64,000 nt of DNA from the NCBI GenBank assembly GCA_913776195.1, contig CAJYMH010000010.1, positions 1 to 64,000 on the forward strand, written 5' to 3'. Each line of letters begins with the position of its first letter. Position 1 is the stretch's first letter. The notes beneath the pieces were generated by a model, which saw only the letters and a program-made list of their open reading frames with translations, made no database searches and was not told the DNA's origin. Shown in pieces: positions 5,197 to 59,387 of this stretch. The position numbers were made by a program, and so were the translations under genes. This stretch comes from an uncultured Caulobacter sp. GTDB taxonomy: Bacteria; Pseudomonadota; Alphaproteobacteria; Caulobacterales; Caulobacteraceae.

Positions 5197-5880
5197 ATGC
5201 CCATCGCCCAGCAGCCTCACGGCCACCTTCGCTCGTTCGGACGCATCCAGGCGCGCCCTCTGAAGCCGCGTCAGGCCGCCCTGTTCGACACGCTCCTGCC
5301 GTCCATCGCCGTGCCGGAAGGCGCCTTTGACCCGCGCGCCCTGGCGCCGGAAGCCAAGGCGGTCTGGCTGGAGATCGGGTTCGGCGGCGGCGAACACATG
5401 GCCGGTCAGGCCGCCCGCAACCCCGATGCTCTGGTGATCGGGGCCGAACCCTTCGTGAACGGGGTGGGCAGCGCCCTGCGCCATGTCGAGGAGCAGGGGC
5501 TGAAGAACGTCCGCCTGCACCACGGCGACGTCCGCGACATTATCGCGGGCCTGCCCGATCAGAGCCTGGACCGGGTCTTCATCATGTTCCCGGACCCCTG
5601 GCAGAAGGCGCGTCATCACAAGCGCCGCCTGATCCAGGACGACTTTCTGGCCGAGCTGGCGCGGGTGATGAAGCCGGGCGCGCGCCTGCGCTTCGCCACC
5701 GACTGGGCGAATTACGCGGACTGGGCTCTGGAGAAAATCCTGGCCAGTGATCTGTTCGCCTGGCCGGTGGAGCGGGCGGACGACTGGCGCATCGCGCCCG
5801 CCGACCACCTCACCACGCGGTACGAGGAAAAGAAGCTGGGCGACTGCGCGCCCGTCTTCCTCGATTTCGTCAGGGCCTGA
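5197..5880 (+). CDS. trmB: tRNA (guanine-N7-)-methyltransferase
   Basis: TrmB methylates N7 of G46 in the variable loop of tRNAs using SAM. The 227-residue protein has the SAM-binding signature LEIGFGGGEH and the family motifs FPDPWQKARHHKRRL and FATDW near the C terminus. I chose the ATG at 5197, preceded by AAAGGG, over the track start at 5152, whose added 15 residues have no family match. It lies close to metK, the source of its cofactor, and converges with ppa, with only 21 bp between stop codons and no obvious terminator hairpin. Confidence 0.95.
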   Translation: MPIAQQPHGHLRSFGRIQARPLKPRQAALFDTLLPSIAVPEGAFDPRALAPEAKAVWLEIGFGGGEHMAGQAARNPDALVIGAEPFVNGVGSALRHVEEQGLKNVRLHHGDVRDIIAGLPDQSLDRVFIMFPDPWQKARHHKRRLIQDDFLAELARVMKPGARLRFATDWANYADWALEKILASDLFAWPVERADDWRIAPADHLTTRYEEKKLGDCAPVFLDFVRA

Positions 5881-5901
5881 TCGGCCCGGACGCCTTAGTT
5901 C

Positions 5902-6477
5902 TTAGTGCTCGCCAGCCTTTTCGAGAGCCGGATACGCCTTGGCCGGCTCGGCGGCGTTGAAGGCGTCGATCGACTTGCGGATCAGCTCGGCGGCCTCCTC
6001 GACGTCGCCCCAACCGCTGATCGTGACCGACTTGCCCTTTTCCAGGTCCTTGTAGTGCTGGAAGAAGTGGGCGATCTGCTCGATCAGGATGGTGGGCAGC
6101 TCGTTCCACGAGTTCACGCCGGTGTAGAACGGGTGCAGTTTGTCAACCGGCACGGCCAGAAGCTTTTCGTCGCCGCCGGCTTCGTCGGTCATCTTCAGCA
6201 CGCCGATCGGACGGCAGCGGATCACCGCGCCGGGCACCACCGGAGTCTGGCTGACCACCATGATATCCATCGGGTCACCGTCATCGGCCAGGGTGTGCGG
6301 GATGAACCCGTAATTGGCCGGGTAGTACATGGCGGTATGCAGGAAGCGGTCCACGAAGATCGCGCCGGAATCCTTGTCGAGCTCGTACTTCACCGGCTCG
6401 CCGCCTTGCGGGATTTCGATCACCGCATACAGGTCATAGGGCGGGTTCTTGCCGGTGGGGATCTTGGAGAGGTCCAT
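5902..6477 (-). CDS. ppa: Inorganic pyrophosphatase
   Basis: A soluble family I pyrophosphatase that hydrolyses PPi to phosphate and so drives DNA, RNA and aminoacyl-tRNA synthesis. The 191-residue length is slightly above the common bacterial 175. The signature DGDPMDIMV with its metal-binding aspartates is intact, as are the N-terminal IEIPQGG and the [10 protein letters not shown] region. ATG start at 6477. It stands alone on the minus strand between trmB and the MoeB/ThiF gene and has an 89-bp gap from the latter for its own promoter. Confidence 0.96.
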
Positions 6478-6566
6478 GGTTGCGGCCGTCCATCACGAAA
6501 AATTCAGTAAAGCGGCGCCCCCTATGGACCGTAACGCGTCTGGGGAAAAGATAGGTGCGACGCTTT

Positions 6567-7307
6567 TTACGCTGCGCCGCACACTGTGCATGCCGGATCG
6601 GCGCCCACCCGCACCGTCCGGGACACGCCTGAAAGGCCGTCATAGATCAACAGCCTGTCCTGCAAGGGCTCGCCAGCGCGGGTGATCACCTTGACCGCCT
6701 CCAGCGCCATCATCGATCCGATAACGCCCGCCAAGGCGCCGACCACGCCTACCGCGCTGCAGGTCTCGGCGTCAGGCGGAATGTCCGGCACCAAGCACTG
6801 GTAGCAGGGGCGGCCTGAGAAAATCCCGACCTGGCCGCTCCATCGGCCGATCGCGCCGGTGACCAGGGTTTTGCCCTTTGCCACGCAGGCGGCGTTGACG
6901 CAGAAGCGGACGCTGAAATCGTCGGTGCCGTCGAGGATCAGGTCGTAGTCGGCGACCAAGGCCTCCGCGTTCTTGGCGGTCAGGGCGTGGGGCAGAGGGT
7001 CGACAGCTACGTTCGGATTGAGCGCCAGCAGGTGTTCGGCGGCGGCGATCACCTTCTCCCGGCCCACATCCGCCGCCGAATAGATCACTTGGCGCTGCAG
7101 GTTCGACAACGAGACCGTGTCGGCGTCCGCCAGGCCGATGGTCCCCACTCCCGCCGCGGCCAGATAGAGCGAGGCCGGCGCGCCCAGCCCGCCGGCGCCG
7201 ACCACCAGGACGCGTGCGCCCTTCAACGCCTGTTGCCCCTGGCCGCCGATTTCACGAAGAACCAGATGGCGGGCGTACCGCTCAACTTCCTCGGTCGAAA
7301 AGCCCAT
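6567..7307 (-). CDS. HesA/MoeB/ThiF-family E1-like adenylyltransferase
   Basis: A 246-residue protein of the ubiquitin-activating E1-like superfamily that adenylates the C terminus of a sulfur-carrier protein such as MoaD or ThiS. Seen are [17 protein letters not shown] at the N terminus, the nucleotide-binding [19 protein letters not shown], the acidic [10 protein letters not shown] and paired cysteines (CYQCL; CTVC) that would hold zinc. The start at 7307 was chosen by homology; the track ORF begins 110 residues earlier in antisense of hslV. Whether it serves molybdopterin or thiamine cannot be settled here because no moa or thi partner is adjacent. It diverges from hslV with 40 bp between starts. 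Confidence 0.9.
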
Positions 7308-7347
7308 GTGCTTGACCTCTTCGGCTGCGCTCGCCACATCGGACGGC

Positions 7348-7899
7348 ATGAAAGCCGACGCTTCTACATTCCCCGACTGGCACGGCACTACAATCCTGGC
7401 TGTTCGCAAGGACGGCCGGACCGTGATCGCCGGCGACGGACAGGTGTCCATGGGCCAGACCGTGGTCAAGGGCAACGCCCGCAAGGTCCGCACCCTGGCG
7501 GGCGGCAAGGTCATCGCGGGCTTCGCGGGCGCCACCGCCGACGCCTTCACCCTGATCGAACGGCTGGAGACAAAGCTGGAGGCCCATCCCGGCCAGCTGG
7601 CTCGAGCCTGCGTCGAACTGGCCAAGGACTGGCGCACCGACCGCTACCTGCGCAAGCTGGAGGCGATGCTGCTCGTGGCCGACGCCGAGGCGATCTACAC
7701 AGTCACCGGCGTGGGAGACGTGCTGGAGCCGGATCTGGGCGTGGCCGCCATAGGCTCCGGCGGAAACTACGCCCTGGCCGCCGCCCGCGCCCTGATCGAC
7801 CAGCCGCTGTCGGCGGAGGAGATCGCCCGTAAAGCCATGGGTATCGCCGCCGAGATTTGCGTCTACACCAACGGTTGCCTCACCGTGGAGACTCTTTAA
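7348..7899 (+). CDS. hslV: ATP-dependent protease subunit HslV
   Basis: HslV is the proteasome-like peptidase of the HslUV (ClpYQ) complex; HslU unfolds and feeds substrates. The 183-residue protein has the N-terminal-nucleophile motif [20 protein letters not shown]. The catalytic Thr therefore follows a short N-terminal extension, not just Met, so a propeptide must be removed; this is known from other alphaproteobacterial HslV proteins. ATG at 7348 was chosen over the track start at 7306. The usual partner hslU lies 0.9 kb downstream, separated by one inserted gene. Confidence 0.96.
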
Positions 7900-54291: not shown

Positions 54292-56694
54292 GTGCTCAAA
54301 GTTCTGACGTGCCTCACCACCGAGCATGATTTCCGGCTCGTCGTGGTCGCAGCGGTCGTCTGCTTCTCGGCATGCCTGACGGCGTTCCGGCTGTTTTCGC
54401 GCATCCGTGGCTCCCAGGGAATGGTCCGCGCCGCATGGCTGCTGTTGACCGGCCTGGTGGCGGGCTCCGGCGTCTGGGCCACCCACTTCATCGCCATGCT
54501 CGCCTACCAGCCGGGCCTTCCCACCGGTTACGAGCCGATGGGCACCCTGGCGTCGCTGATGATCGCGGTGGTGTTCATCGGCGGCGGCTTCGCGGTGGGC
54601 GCGGCGCGGCGCGACAGCGACAACCAGGTGGCCGGCGGCGTGCTGATCGGGCTTGGCGTCGCGGCCATGCACTATGAAGGCATGTCGGCCTTCGAAACCC
54701 AGGGCCAGCTGATCTGGGAGCACGCCACCGTCGGGGCGTCGGTCCTGTTCGGCGTCGTCGGCGCCGTGGCCGCTTTACTGGTGGCGGGCCGAGCCCGCAG
54801 CCTGAGCCGCCAGCTTATGGCCGGCAGCCTGTTCGCCACCGGCGTCTGCGCGCTGCATTTCACCGGCATGGCGGCCATCACCATCATCCCCGATCCGGCC
54901 GTTGTTGTTCCGGCCCAGCTGCTGTCGGGCGGGGTCCTGACCTTCGCCGTCACCGGCATCACCGGCATGATCGTGCTGGGCGGACTGGGAGCGGTGGTCA
55001 TCGAATCCCAGACCAACCGCTCGGCCGTGGAGCGTATCCGCCGCCTGGCCAACGCCGCCTATGAAGGCCTCGCAGTGGTCGAGGACGGGCGCCTGAACGA
55101 CGCCAACGCCGCCTTCTGCGAGCTGATCGGCGCCCCGCTGAGCGAAATCCAGGGGCTGCGGGTCGAGGGCGAACTGCTCGTCTTCGACATGGGCGCGGTC
55201 CCCGGCATCGGGCATCGCCGCGAGGCGCTGTTGCGCCCCCGGGACGGTTCGCCCGAGATTCCGGTGGAGGTGTTCGCGCGCCTGCTCGACGACGGCCGCC
55301 GCAATGAGACCAGCGGCCTGACGGTCCTGGCCATCCGCGACCTGCGCGAGCGCCGCTCCGCGGAGGAGAAAATCCGCTATCTGGCCGAGCATGACGGTCT
55401 GACGGGCCTGCCGAACCGTCACGCCCTGCAGACGCGGTTTTCCGCCGCCCTGGATCGGGTGGAGGCTTCTGGCGAGGGCCTGGCGCTGCTGTGCCTGGAC
55501 CTGGACAATTTCAAGGACGCCAACGACCTGCATGGGCACGCCGCAGGCGACGCCCTGCTGGTGGAGGCGGCGCAGCGCCTATCGAGCGTGCTGCCCGCAC
55601 CGTCTTTCGCCGCCCGCCTGGGCGGCGACGAGTTCGTGATCGTGCAGATCGGCGGACGCGATCAGCCGGCGGCCGCCGCCGAACTGGCCGCCCGCGTCCT
55701 GGACGTCATGCGCAAGCCCTTCAGCTATGAGGGCCACGAGTTGTCGCTCGGCGTCAGCATCGGGGTCAGCCTCTGCCCCGACGACGGCCGCACCGCCGCC
55801 GCCCTGATGGCCAACGCCGACATGGCCCTGTATCGGGCCAAGGAGGGCGGCCGCGACCGCTATCGCTTCTTCAAGCGCGAGATGGATGAGACGATCCGCG
55901 AGCGCCGCAATCTGGCGCGCGAGCTGAAGGCCGCCATCCAGGCCGAAGAGCTGATGGTCTACTACCAGCCCCAGGCTCGCACGTCCGACGGCGAGGTCTG
56001 CGGCTTCGAGGCGCTGGTGCGCTGGAACCACCCGATACGGGGCATGATCCCGCCCATCGAGTTCATCCCGATCGCGGAGGAAAGCGGGCTGATCGAGGCG
56101 CTCGGCGCGTTCGTCCTCAACCGAGCCTGCGCCGACGCCATCGCCTGGGAGCGTCCGTTGAATGTGGCGGTGAACCTGTCGCCGCTGCAGCTGAACCAGC
56201 CCGGCCTGTCGGCCATGGTCCACGGGGTGCTGATCAATTCCGGCCTGTCGCCGCAGCGGCTGGAGCTGGAGGTCACCGAAAGCGCCCTGTTCAAGGACTA
56301 CCAGCGCGCCCTCGACAACCTGCGCCAGCTGAAGGCCCTGGGGGTGCGCATCGCCATGGACGACTTCGGCACCGGCTATTCGTCCCTTTCGACCCTGCAG
56401 TCCTTCCCCTTCGACAAGCTCAAGATCGACAAGAGCTTCGTGGAAAGCATCCATCGCCACGATCGGGCCACGGCCATCGTGAAGGCGGTGCTGAGCCTCG
56501 GCCGCAGCCTGGACATCCCGGTGGTCGCCGAGGGCGTGGAGACCGGCGAGCAGCTGGCTTTCCTGCGTGGTGAGAACTGCGCCGAAGTGCAGGGCTACGC
56601 CATCGGCCGTCCGGCGCCGGTGCACACCCTGAGCAACTGGACCAACCCGTTGGCTCGCAAGGCTGCGCCGCGTCGCCGCCGCACCGCCGCCTGA
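54292..56694 (+). CDS. MHYT-PAS-GGDEF-EAL cyclic-di-GMP signalling protein
   Basis: An 800-residue membrane protein. The first ~240 residues form an MHYT sensor with about seven membrane segments and the repeated signature THFIAM, MHYEGM and LHFTGM, which is proposed to bind copper or sense gases such as NO or O2. A PAS-like segment follows (about residues 250-360), then GGDEF (intact, ARLGGDEF near 444) and EAL (EALVRW near 573; DDFGTGYSSL, VVAEGVET). Both catalytic motifs look active. No RxxD inhibitory site precedes GGDEF. Start is a GTG at 54292. Confidence 0.93.
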   Translation: MLKVLTCLTTEHDFRLVVVAAVVCFSACLTAFRLFSRIRGSQGMVRAAWLLLTGLVAGSGVWATHFIAMLAYQPGLPTGYEPMGTLASLMIAVVFIGGGFAVGAARRDSDNQVAGGVLIGLGVAAMHYEGMSAFETQGQLIWEHATVGASVLFGVVGAVAALLVAGRARSLSRQLMAGSLFATGVCALHFTGMAAITIIPDPAVVVPAQLLSGGVLTFAVTGITGMIVLGGLGAVVIESQTNRSAVERIRRLANAAYEGLAVVEDGRLNDANAAFCELIGAPLSEIQGLRVEGELLVFDMGAVPGIGHRREALLRPRDGSPEIPVEVFARLLDDGRRNETSGLTVLAIRDLRERRSAEEKIRYLAEHDGLTGLPNRHALQTRFSAALDRVEASGEGLALLCLDLDNFKDANDLHGHAAGDALLVEAAQRLSSVLPAPSFAARLGGDEFVIVQIGGRDQPAAAAELAARVLDVMRKPFSYEGHELSLGVSIGVSLCPDDGRTAAALMANADMALYRAKEGGRDRYRFFKREMDETIRERRNLARELKAAIQAEELMVYYQPQARTSDGEVCGFEALVRWNHPIRGMIPPIEFIPIAEESGLIEALGAFVLNRACADAIAWERPLNVAVNLSPLQLNQPGLSAMVHGVLINSGLSPQRLELEVTESALFKDYQRALDNLRQLKALGVRIAMDDFGTGYSSLSTLQSFPFDKLKIDKSFVESIHRHDRATAIVKAVLSLGRSLDIPVVAEGVETGEQLAFLRGENCAEVQGYAIGRPAPVHTLSNWTNPLARKAAPRRRRTAA

Positions 56695-56792: not shown

Positions 56793-58208
56793 ATGCCCGT
56801 TTTCGGACCCGCCAAGTGGGATTCCGCTCAGTACGGTGTCGGCGCGACCGTCACCTGGAGTTTCGCCGAAGGCGCCCTTGGCGGCCTGCCGTCCGGCTAC
56901 ACCAGCATGACGCCGATCGCCGCGGGCTTCCGCGCCTTGGTCCAGGCCGCCTTCGACGCCTGGGAGGCGGTGGCCAACATCGACTTTGTCTGGGTGGCCG
57001 ACGCGTCTAACGTCAATATCCGGATCGGGGACGCGCCGATCGACGGACGGCCCGGCGCGGGGCAGGGGTCCACCCTGGCCACGGCGCAGTTCTGGTATCG
57101 CGGCGGCGAGATGAGCGTCGCCCAGGTCTATTTCGACGTCGACGCCTATGACCGGGGCAACTTCTACAGCACCGCCGTTCATGAGATCGGCCACGCCATC
57201 GGACTGGAGCACACCACGATCCAGAACGCGGTGATGTACCCGCAGATCACCAGCGCCAATCGTGACGGCGTTCTCACTTCGGATGACCTCGCCGGCATCC
57301 AGACGCTCTACGGCGCCAAGGCCGCTTCCGGGGCCAGCGCTACGGTCAGTGTGCTGCAGGCGAGCTTCGAGCATGTGCTGCGGGTGAACCCGGCCACGGC
57401 GCCCGCGACGCTTGTCCTGTCCGATGGCGCAGTCGTTTCCAATCCCATGAAGGCCTTCGCGGATCTGCTGCCCGGCATGGCGGCGCAGATCGACCGCGGC
57501 GCCCTGAGTCTCGCCGACGCCCGCGCCCAGATCGCCGGCTGGGCCGACACGACCACTTCGGTGGCCAATCTTTCCTATGATTTCTTCACCGGCCGCACGC
57601 CCCGCGAAGACGGCCTGGACTTTCTGGTCAACAGCGGCGGGAACGCCAATGACCTGAACGACCCCTACTATGCGCGGTTCAATATGGAGAACCGCTACAT
57701 CAACTTCGCCGTGAACCTGGGAAAGCTGGGGGAGGGGCGAGCCGATTTCGCTGACGACTATGGCGGTCTCAACCTGCGGCAGGCGACGGCGAAGGCCTAT
57801 GGGGAGATATTCGGGATCGGGGCCACCGACGCCAAGGTCTCCGCCCTTCTGACCGGGACCCGCATAGACTACTTCATCAGCTATGGCGGCGACGGTCAGA
57901 ACGGGACCGGGACCAAGGCGGCCATGGTCGGCTGGCTGCTGGCCGAGGCGCAAAAGGCCGACGAGGGTCCCTATGTGACGGCTAACAACCGCTTCCTCAT
58001 CGACCTGGCGCAGGACGGCGTCGCCCAGTTCAATGTTCACCTGCCCGCGGCCTATGGCGCTTCCGCGCTGGTCGAGGGTTCCGGTAATCTGGAGATGCAC
58101 GCCGAATCCTACTGGAGCAATCCGCAGCTTGACCTGGAGCTCGGGAGCCAAGCTGAGCCTTGGGGCGTTGTGCGGAACCAGGCTGTCGAATACGCCGAGC
58201 TGGTCTGA
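56793..58208 (+). CDS. Matrixin-type metalloprotease with RsaA-like surface-anchor domain
   Basis: A 471-residue protein without an N-terminal signal. Residues 1-175 form a matrixin/serralysin-type zinc protease with HEIGHAIGLEH (residues 130-140) and the Met-turn AVMYPQ. Residues ~215-420 resemble the N-terminal LPS-anchor domain of the Caulobacter S-layer protein RsaA: YDFFTGRTPREDGLDFLV, NDLNDPYYARFNMENRYINF, and IDYFISYGG. A C-terminal part of ~50 residues follows. Absence of a signal suggests type I secretion via a C-terminal signal, as for RsaA and serralysins. Start ATG after GGAGTGAG. The RsaA match is from memory. Confidence 0.82.
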   Translation: MPVFGPAKWDSAQYGVGATVTWSFAEGALGGLPSGYTSMTPIAAGFRALVQAAFDAWEAVANIDFVWVADASNVNIRIGDAPIDGRPGAGQGSTLATAQFWYRGGEMSVAQVYFDVDAYDRGNFYSTAVHEIGHAIGLEHTTIQNAVMYPQITSANRDGVLTSDDLAGIQTLYGAKAASGASATVSVLQASFEHVLRVNPATAPATLVLSDGAVVSNPMKAFADLLPGMAAQIDRGALSLADARAQIAGWADTTTSVANLSYDFFTGRTPREDGLDFLVNSGGNANDLNDPYYARFNMENRYINFAVNLGKLGEGRADFADDYGGLNLRQATAKAYGEIFGIGATDAKVSALLTGTRIDYFISYGGDGQNGTGTKAAMVGWLLAEAQKADEGPYVTANNRFLIDLAQDGVAQFNVHLPAAYGASALVEGSGNLEMHAESYWSNPQLDLELGSQAEPWGVVRNQAVEYAELV

Positions 58209-58271: not shown

Positions 58272-59387
58272 ATGGCCGCACAGCCCGTCACCTCGCGTAC
58301 CTCGCTGATCATCATCGCCGCTGTGGCGGTGGGCTTCACGCTCTACTTCCTTCGCGGCATCCTCACGCCGCTCGCCCTGGCGATGTTCCTGGCCGTGATG
58401 ATCGACGGCTTCGCCCGGTTGCTGAAGGACCGCATCCCCGGCTTTCCGGCGCGGGCGGCCATGCCGGCGGCGGTCGTCTTCTCCATCCTATTCCTGGGTC
58501 TGACCCTGTGGTTCGTGGCCGCCAACGCCGCGGGTTTCGTGAACCAGCTGGTCAACTACGGGCCGCGCATCGACGGTCGGATCGCACAAGGGGCGGATTT
58601 CCTGGGCGTCGCCGCCCCGCCGCCCGTGCGCGAACTGATCGGGCGCTTCAATCCGGCCCGCTACATCGGCGCCGTGGCCGGCGGGTTCCAGAACTTCGCC
58701 TCGGACGCGGTGTTCGTGCTGATCTATCTCGGCTTCATCATCGCCTCGCGCCAGGGCTTCCAGCAAAAGGCCAAGGCGCTGTTCCCGGACGAGGCGGAGC
58801 GTCAGGAGGCGGGCAAGACCTTCGACCGCATCCGCAGCGGCGTGGAGCGCTATCTGTGGATTCAGACCGTCACCGGTCTGATGATCGCCTTCGGCTCGTG
58901 GATCGCTATGGCTGCGGTCGGGTTGGACAGCGCCCTGTTCTGGGCCTTCCTGATCTTCCTGGCCTCCTACATCCCCATCGTCGGCGGCGTGATCGGCGTG
59001 GCCCTGCCGCCCGTCTTCGCCCTGGTCCAGTTCGAGACCTGGTGGCAGGCGTTCCTGCTGCTGGGCATCCTGCAGGGGGTGCAGTTCGTGGTCGGCAATG
59101 TGGTCCAGCCGCGCATGCAGGGCGACAGCCTCAACATGGATCCGGTGGTGGTGCTGCTGGCCCTGGCCTTCTGGAGCCTGGTCTGGGGTTTGCCGGGCGC
59201 GTTCCTGTCCACGCCGCTGGCGGTCATGACCATGGTTATCCTGGCGCAGTTCGAAGGCGGGCGGCGCGTCGCGATCCTGCTTTCGGCGGACGGCGACCCC
59301 CTGGGCATGGATGATCGGCCGGTCAAAAGCCCCCGGAAACGGGCCGCCGCCGCCCGGAAAAATTCACCCGCAAAACCTTCTTCCTGA
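58272..59387 (+). CDS. AI-2E/PerM-family transporter
   Basis: A 371-residue polytopic membrane protein of the AI-2 exporter-like family (PerM, YdiK): SLIIIAAVAVGFTLYFLRGILTPLALAM, then PPVRELIGRFNPARYIG and FLIFLASYIPIVGGVIGVALPPVFAL near the end. About eight membrane segments and a basic cytoplasmic tail (KSPRKRAAAARKNS). Family members have been linked to autoinducer export or Na+/H+ antiport; substrate unknown. ATG at 58272. It is separated from the protease gene by 63 bp. Confidence 0.88.
   Translation: MAAQPVTSRTSLIIIAAVAVGFTLYFLRGILTPLALAMFLAVMIDGFARLLKDRIPGFPARAAMPAAVVFSILFLGLTLWFVAANAAGFVNQLVNYGPRIDGRIAQGADFLGVAAPPPVRELIGRFNPARYIGAVAGGFQNFASDAVFVLIYLGFIIASRQGFQQKAKALFPDEAERQEAGKTFDRIRSGVERYLWIQTVTGLMIAFGSWIAMAAVGLDSALFWAFLIFLASYIPIVGGVIGVALPPVFALVQFETWWQAFLLLGILQGVQFVVGNVVQPRMQGDSLNMDPVVVLLALAFWSLVWGLPGAFLSTPLAVMTMVILAQFEGGRRVAILLSADGDPLGMDDRPVKSPRKRAAAARKNSPAKPSS

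Follow-up and report, generated by a model that had tools for sequence, protein, structure and literature searches.

Results

Gene and domain layout

Within the window, which is the whole stretch of 64,000 nucleotides analysed here (positions 1–64000 of contig C10, from a 3.27 Mb draft assembly that is 84% complete), an open reading frame at 56793–58208 on the forward strand codes for a protein of 471 aa. In this protein, a matrixin catalytic domain is followed by a domain of the RsaA N-terminal type. The features of the locus are as follows.

54292–56694, + strand: upstream neighbour, MHYT-PAS-GGDEF-EAL protein (Pfam)
56793–58208, + strand: whole gene, matrixin plus RsaA_NTD protein, 471 aa (ORF, Pfam)
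56793–57326, + strand: matrixin (M10) catalytic domain, residues 1–178, without propeptide or RTX repeats (PF00413; 1CGE)
57180–57236, + strand: zinc site HEIGHAIGLEH and Met-turn Met148 (1CGE alignment; invariant with alphaproteobacterial matrixins)
57327–57449, + strand: variable linker, residues 179–219 (alignment of four orthologues)
57450–58091, + strand: anchor like the RsaA N-terminal domain, residues 220–433; Pfam core 57552–58061 (PF19198, 6T72)
57612–57683, + strand: segment aligned with the RsaA 77–100 Ca2+-binding loop at the O-antigen pocket, GLDFLVNSGGNANDLNDPYYARFN (alignment; PMC6978808)
58092–58205, + strand: C-terminal tail, ~40 residues past the anchor, with the end GSQA..WGVVRNQ...AELV kept in orthologues
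58272–59387, + strand: downstream neighbour, AI-2E family transporter (Pfam)

The protease part was identified by hmmscan as a matrixin (PF00413, residues 46–174; E 4.2e-21, 75.9 bits against a cut-off of 24), and a phmmer search of the PDB matched it to the catalytic domain of MMP-1 (1CGE, E 1.2e-11). The zinc motif (residues 130–140) and Met148 are complete and have MMP-1-like spacing. The cysteine-switch propeptide of secreted animal MMPs is absent from this protein, which contains no Cys; many bacterial M10 members likewise lack such a propeptide. RTX (PF00353) and M10_C (PF08548) gave no Pfam match in the protein.

For the second domain, hmmscan returned RsaA_NTD (PF19198) at residues 254–423 with E 2.7e-63 and a score of 213.5 bits (cut-off 27), spanning profile positions 1–179 of 185. 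Using phmmer against the PDB, the RsaA N-terminal domain (6T72/7PEO) matched residues 220–433, corresponding to window positions 57450–58091, with E 4.1e-24, and the full RsaA structures (6Z7P, 5N8P) matched with E 3e-21; the RsaA-like domain as sole query gave E 1.5e-24. The PF00413, PF19198 and 6T72 matches are far beyond chance, indicating that an earlier note on this DNA correctly read a zinc protease fused to an RsaA-type anchor. All three motif blocks that it quoted are present, and the relation to RsaA that it proposed is confirmed by the profile match. The span that it assigned to the domain (57435–58050) covers most of the anchor but ends before its C-terminal end. AlphaFold2, run with a 5-row alignment, yielded no reliable structure model of the protein (mean pLDDT 34.7).

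Orthologues, synteny and selection

In a sample of 75 genomes of the genus Caulobacter, the complete two-domain protein with the same arrangement was found in four, namely the source genome and three relatives: G296 (85% identity), G260 (Caulobacter segnis strain FS, 80–81%) and G286 (77%). The nearest named match, which is full-length, was that of C. segnis FS. The flanks of the gene formed ~12–13 kb of unbroken DNA alignment in all orthologue genomes, indicating that synteny is kept. No such protease was found within ~1.5 kb of the AI-2E transporter homologues in eight other Caulobacter genomes.

The dN/dS values against the window were 0.09–0.22 for the matrixin domain, 0.12–0.20 for the anchor, 0.12–0.41 for the linker and 0.33–1.2 for the tail. 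The low values in the matrixin and anchor domains indicate that both are maintained by purifying selection. Together with one open frame across four genomes and an intact active site, they make it extremely improbable that the gene is an inactive remnant, or that two separate genes were wrongly called as one.

Export and O-antigen machinery

An RsaD query from a C. vibrioides-like genome (L071) identified orthologues with 71–72% identity in all three relatives; genomes without the anchor family had RsaD relatives at just 38–41%. The RsaD of C. segnis FS scored 771 bits with TIGR01842. The rsa locus of the three relatives codes for RsaD, an HlyD-type adaptor (the RsaE orthologue), a Wzm/Wzt-like polysaccharide exporter, a GDP-mannose dehydratase (gmd) and a protein of 683–694 aa with an N-terminal anchor, which is a candidate S-layer protein. 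A sugar aminotransferase is encoded at the locus in C. segnis FS and G296, as is a matrixin-PPC-anchor paralogue of the window protein (L082:4525–6135 and L084:17102–18712), which adjoins the candidate S-layer gene. A TolC-type protein, just below its cut-off, was observed near the locus in G296. In the source draft assembly, the RsaDEF and O-antigen genes of the rsa locus were not found, and the TIGR01842 search returned only generic ABC transporters under the cut-off. Since this assembly is 84% complete, the missing transporter and sugar genes may reflect an assembly gap.

The window protein has several traits expected of a type I substrate. A Sec-type signal was absent (the maximum 15-residue hydropathy within the first 60 aa was 1.13), the pI is 4.4 and there are zero Cys residues, all of which fit type I export; the exporter was found in the three relatives and not in the source draft.

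The earlier note had also proposed that the protein is tethered to O-antigen instead of an S-layer. Since the rsa locus, with its gene for an S-layer-like protein that has an N-terminal anchor, is retained in all three relatives, the replacement of the S-layer was dropped. The roles in S-layer turnover or defence that the note suggested are hypothetical. The tether itself is likely: the protease carries an RsaA-type anchor whose conserved residues are kept, as described below, and the protein is therefore most likely tethered to the surface.

Conservation of the anchor

In RsaA, cryo-EM showed that residues 77–100 form a Ca2+-binding loop which O-antigen stabilises, and that the subunits touch one another through Asp30-Lys142 (PMC6978808). 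Across 94 anchored proteins gathered from four genomes, 26 RsaA positions were at least 95% conserved, including G77, L81, N87, L91, F99, N103, R104, I106, N107 and K193, and the window protein retains the equivalents of all of these. It also retains Asp at RsaA positions 79, 90 and 93, and has Asn in place of RsaA Asp83. The equivalents of Asp30 and Lys142 are P227 and E338, so that the contact is absent, and the pair is missing in all but one of the 94 anchors; the alignment is weak near Asp30 in both cases. The lattice-forming C-terminal domain of RsaA-type S-layer proteins is absent from the window protein. The simplest reading of these aligned residues is that the sugar-gripping part would have been kept and the lattice contact lost, in which case the protein would probably be tethered as a unit of its own.

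The anchor as a tag on many proteins

RsaA_NTD genes number 17 in the source draft genome and up to 29 in its relatives. The domain was found in 24 of the 75 Caulobacter genomes, with 3 to 29 copies each; among 249 genomes sampled from the order and 385 sampled from the class, none outside Caulobacter exceeded the family cut-off. Among the 94 anchored proteins, 78 have the anchor at the C-terminus, followed by a median of 4 residues, which makes the ~40-residue tail of the window protein unusual. The anchor is N-terminal in the other 16, starting 18–61 residues from the N-terminus, and internal in none. The cargo includes matrixin and serralysin proteases, RTX repeats, the bacterial Ig and cadherin domains of adhesin-like proteins, Calx-beta, FG-GAP propellers, right-handed beta helix, dockerin, PPC, class-3 lipase, pectinesterase and a phage-tail-collar domain. 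The RsaA anchor in this lineage is thus a general terminal tag on many different proteins. The set contains 37 Cys in 65,784 residues (0.06%), compared with 0.6% in long window ORFs, and this near absence of Cys fits the type I export of unfolded chains.

Some members of the family were observed individually. In the source genome, three proteins (L021:3515–4756, L021:4901–6265 and L019:3029–4387) have LPGLAGGVGVDL-type glycine-rich repeats ahead of a C-terminal RsaA anchor and share the end AWMA; judging from these repeats, they may resemble surface glycine-zipper proteins. A 247-residue, near-pure RsaA anchor without cargo is encoded at L020:3833–4576, and cargo-less anchor proteins were also observed at L110, L126 and L140 in the relatives, so that they are present in four of four genomes. 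In G286, L087:997–7458 codes for three tandem proteins of 662–671 aa, each anchored at the N-terminus, whose C-terminal ends are almost identical; this array adjoins a methyltransferase-like gene and is possibly an array of S-layer paralogues. Among the anchored proteins of C. segnis FS and G286, a phage tail collar domain (PF07484, E 3e-48), a class-3 lipase domain and a pectinesterase domain were each found in one protein. Two adjacent SapA-like serralysin-anchor proteases, whose anchors fall in different tree clades, are encoded at L015:3249–7423 of the source genome (contig C21). A second anchored gene, coding for 350 aa, is located beyond the window on the same contig as the protease (C10:122109–122615).

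Evolution of the protease and the anchor

In the catalytic-domain tree, the window protein grouped with the paralogue and alphaproteobacterial matrixins, apart from the SapA-type serralysins (100/100). Its catalytic domain showed 35–51% identity to the matrixin group compared with 19–25% to serralysin domains. In the anchor tree, the protein and its orthologues formed one clade (100/100), and the anchors of the paralogue were placed among RTX and FG-GAP proteins. Approximately unbiased (AU) tests, which are weaker here because the groups were named after tree inspection, did not reject a single origin of the matrixin-anchor pairing at 5% (p 0.06) and rejected that of the serralysin-anchor pairing (p 0.0145). 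Therefore, anchor and cargo have probably recombined, at least among the serralysins.

Discussion

Proposed function

We consider it likely that the gene codes for a type-I-secreted, Ca2+/O-antigen-tethered zinc endopeptidase of the cell surface, of which we infer the export route, O-antigen binding, activity and substrate. The protein would be exported unfolded through an RsaDEF-type (type I) secretion system and would fold outside the cell with Ca2+ and Zn2+. The C-terminal RsaA-type domain would grip the LPS O-antigen in a Ca2+-dependent manner, thereby holding the protease on the producing cell, where it would probably be a monomeric member of a large displayed set that shares this tag. 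Most likely, it would cleave proteins at or just below the cell surface, such as S-layer, other anchored or incoming proteins; this role is modelled on SapA, which cuts altered RsaA. Three points weigh against this model. The RsaDEF and O-antigen genes were not found in the source draft, RsaA Asp83 is replaced by Asn, and SapA is said to remain on cells even without the O side chain, so that an anchor at the C-terminus may also attach to a partner other than O-antigen.

Alternatively, the C-terminal RsaA-like domain may serve mainly as a type I export signal, or for export together with docking to the outer membrane or a surface protein, instead of as an O-antigen tether. Because 78 of the 94 anchors end so close to the C-terminus, a type I signal of its own could hardly fit behind them, and the last ~100 residues of SapA are reportedly enough for both secretion and anchoring. 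Moreover, SapA is type I-secreted without a clearly identifiable signal (PMC3034196). However, in 16 of the 94 proteins the domain is N-terminal and cannot serve as a C-terminal signal, some of the most conserved positions lie in the structurally solved Ca2+/O-antigen loop region, and the conserved end of the extra 40-residue tail could carry the signal in the window protein. We regard a mainly export-related role as unlikely.

As for the substrate of a surface-tethered protease, S-layer editing in the strict sense of SapA, in which the protease would lie under the lattice and remove misfolded or altered S-layer protein, is rather doubtful. The two-part architecture is shared with SapA, and in C. 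segnis FS and G296 the candidate S-layer gene has the matrixin-anchor paralogue as a neighbour. Nevertheless, the source genome already has SapA-like serralysin-anchor proteins (L015:3249–5234 and 5576–7423), so the role may be filled; furthermore, the protease domain falls in a different clade, and the gene is unlinked to the rsa locus. A tethered digestive or defensive protease acting on foreign proteins (nutrient peptides, or predator, phage or competitor proteins) is a possibility that we hold tentatively. The lipase, pectinesterase and adhesin-like cargo of the anchored set suggests outward-facing functions, whereas no import, immunity or defence gene was seen linked to the protease, whose neighbours are the GGDEF-EAL protein and the AI-2E transporter, and most of the window genes sampled have housekeeping roles.

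A possible wider tag system

The wider tag system is a more interesting result than the single protease. In one Caulobacter lineage, the anchor may act as a sorting tag, by which 17–29 cargoes would be exported through RsaDEF type I secretion and docked on O-antigen; we judge the case for this to be evenly balanced. If true, this would be a native surface-display system built on LPS, whose role is comparable to that of SLH, LPXTG or type IX C-terminal tags. The S-layer literature searched presents the RsaA N-terminal domain as an anchor for SapA and a single lattice protein; in nature, many enzymes and adhesin-like proteins would carry it as a portable tag. No description of the anchor-family expansion or of the matrixin version was found in that literature, and as most subscription papers lay outside its coverage, novelty is unproven.

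An LPS-based rule of surface display in a Gram-negative bacterium thereby becomes directly testable, and the anchored enzymes described here are candidates for use in existing display systems engineered from RsaA. RsaA 1–250 has been used for anchoring foreign polymers to O-antigen (PMC9492681), and SapA has been deleted from display strains, since it is able to cut modified S-layer proteins (PMC8546985, PMC12896265).

Comparison with known systems

The idea of a protease with an RsaA-type anchor is not new. Its published precedent is SapA, an S-layer-associated protease whose N-terminal half is RTX-protease-like and whose C-terminal half is like the RsaA N-terminus (PMC3034196). SapA of C. 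crescentus/vibrioides (NF051884) and the window protein are alike in having an N-terminal Zn metalloprotease and a C-terminal RsaA-NTD-like half. However, the protease domain of SapA is a serralysin with M10_C/RTX, whereas the window protein has a compact matrixin, no RTX and a 40-residue tail; the two catalytic domains are ~23% identical and belong to separate clades (100/100). With the SapA equivalog NF051884, the window protein scored 215.5 bits, below the cut-off of 1200, and only its anchor part matched (positions 435–627). Its assignment as a SapA orthologue was dropped because of this low score and the different clade of the catalytic domain.

Compared with RsaA (6T72), the anchor is homologous over nearly the full length, most of the Ca2+ loop included, but it is C-terminal, the lattice domain is missing and the Asp30-Lys142 contact is not kept. 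The alphaproteobacterial matrixin-RTX proteins (L028, uncultured Rhodobacteraceae) belong to the same matrixin lineage, with ~35% identity and no evident signal peptide, but have RTX repeats where the window protein has the RsaA anchor. The matrixin-PPC-RsaA_NTD paralogue of C. segnis FS and G296 similarly has a C-terminal anchor and a matrixin that is 50% identical; in contrast to the window protein, it is 536 aa long with a PPC-like middle domain, and its anchor groups elsewhere. The window protein is thus a variant distinct from SapA within a known architecture, in which a matrixin replaces the serralysin, RTX repeats are missing and the tail is its own.
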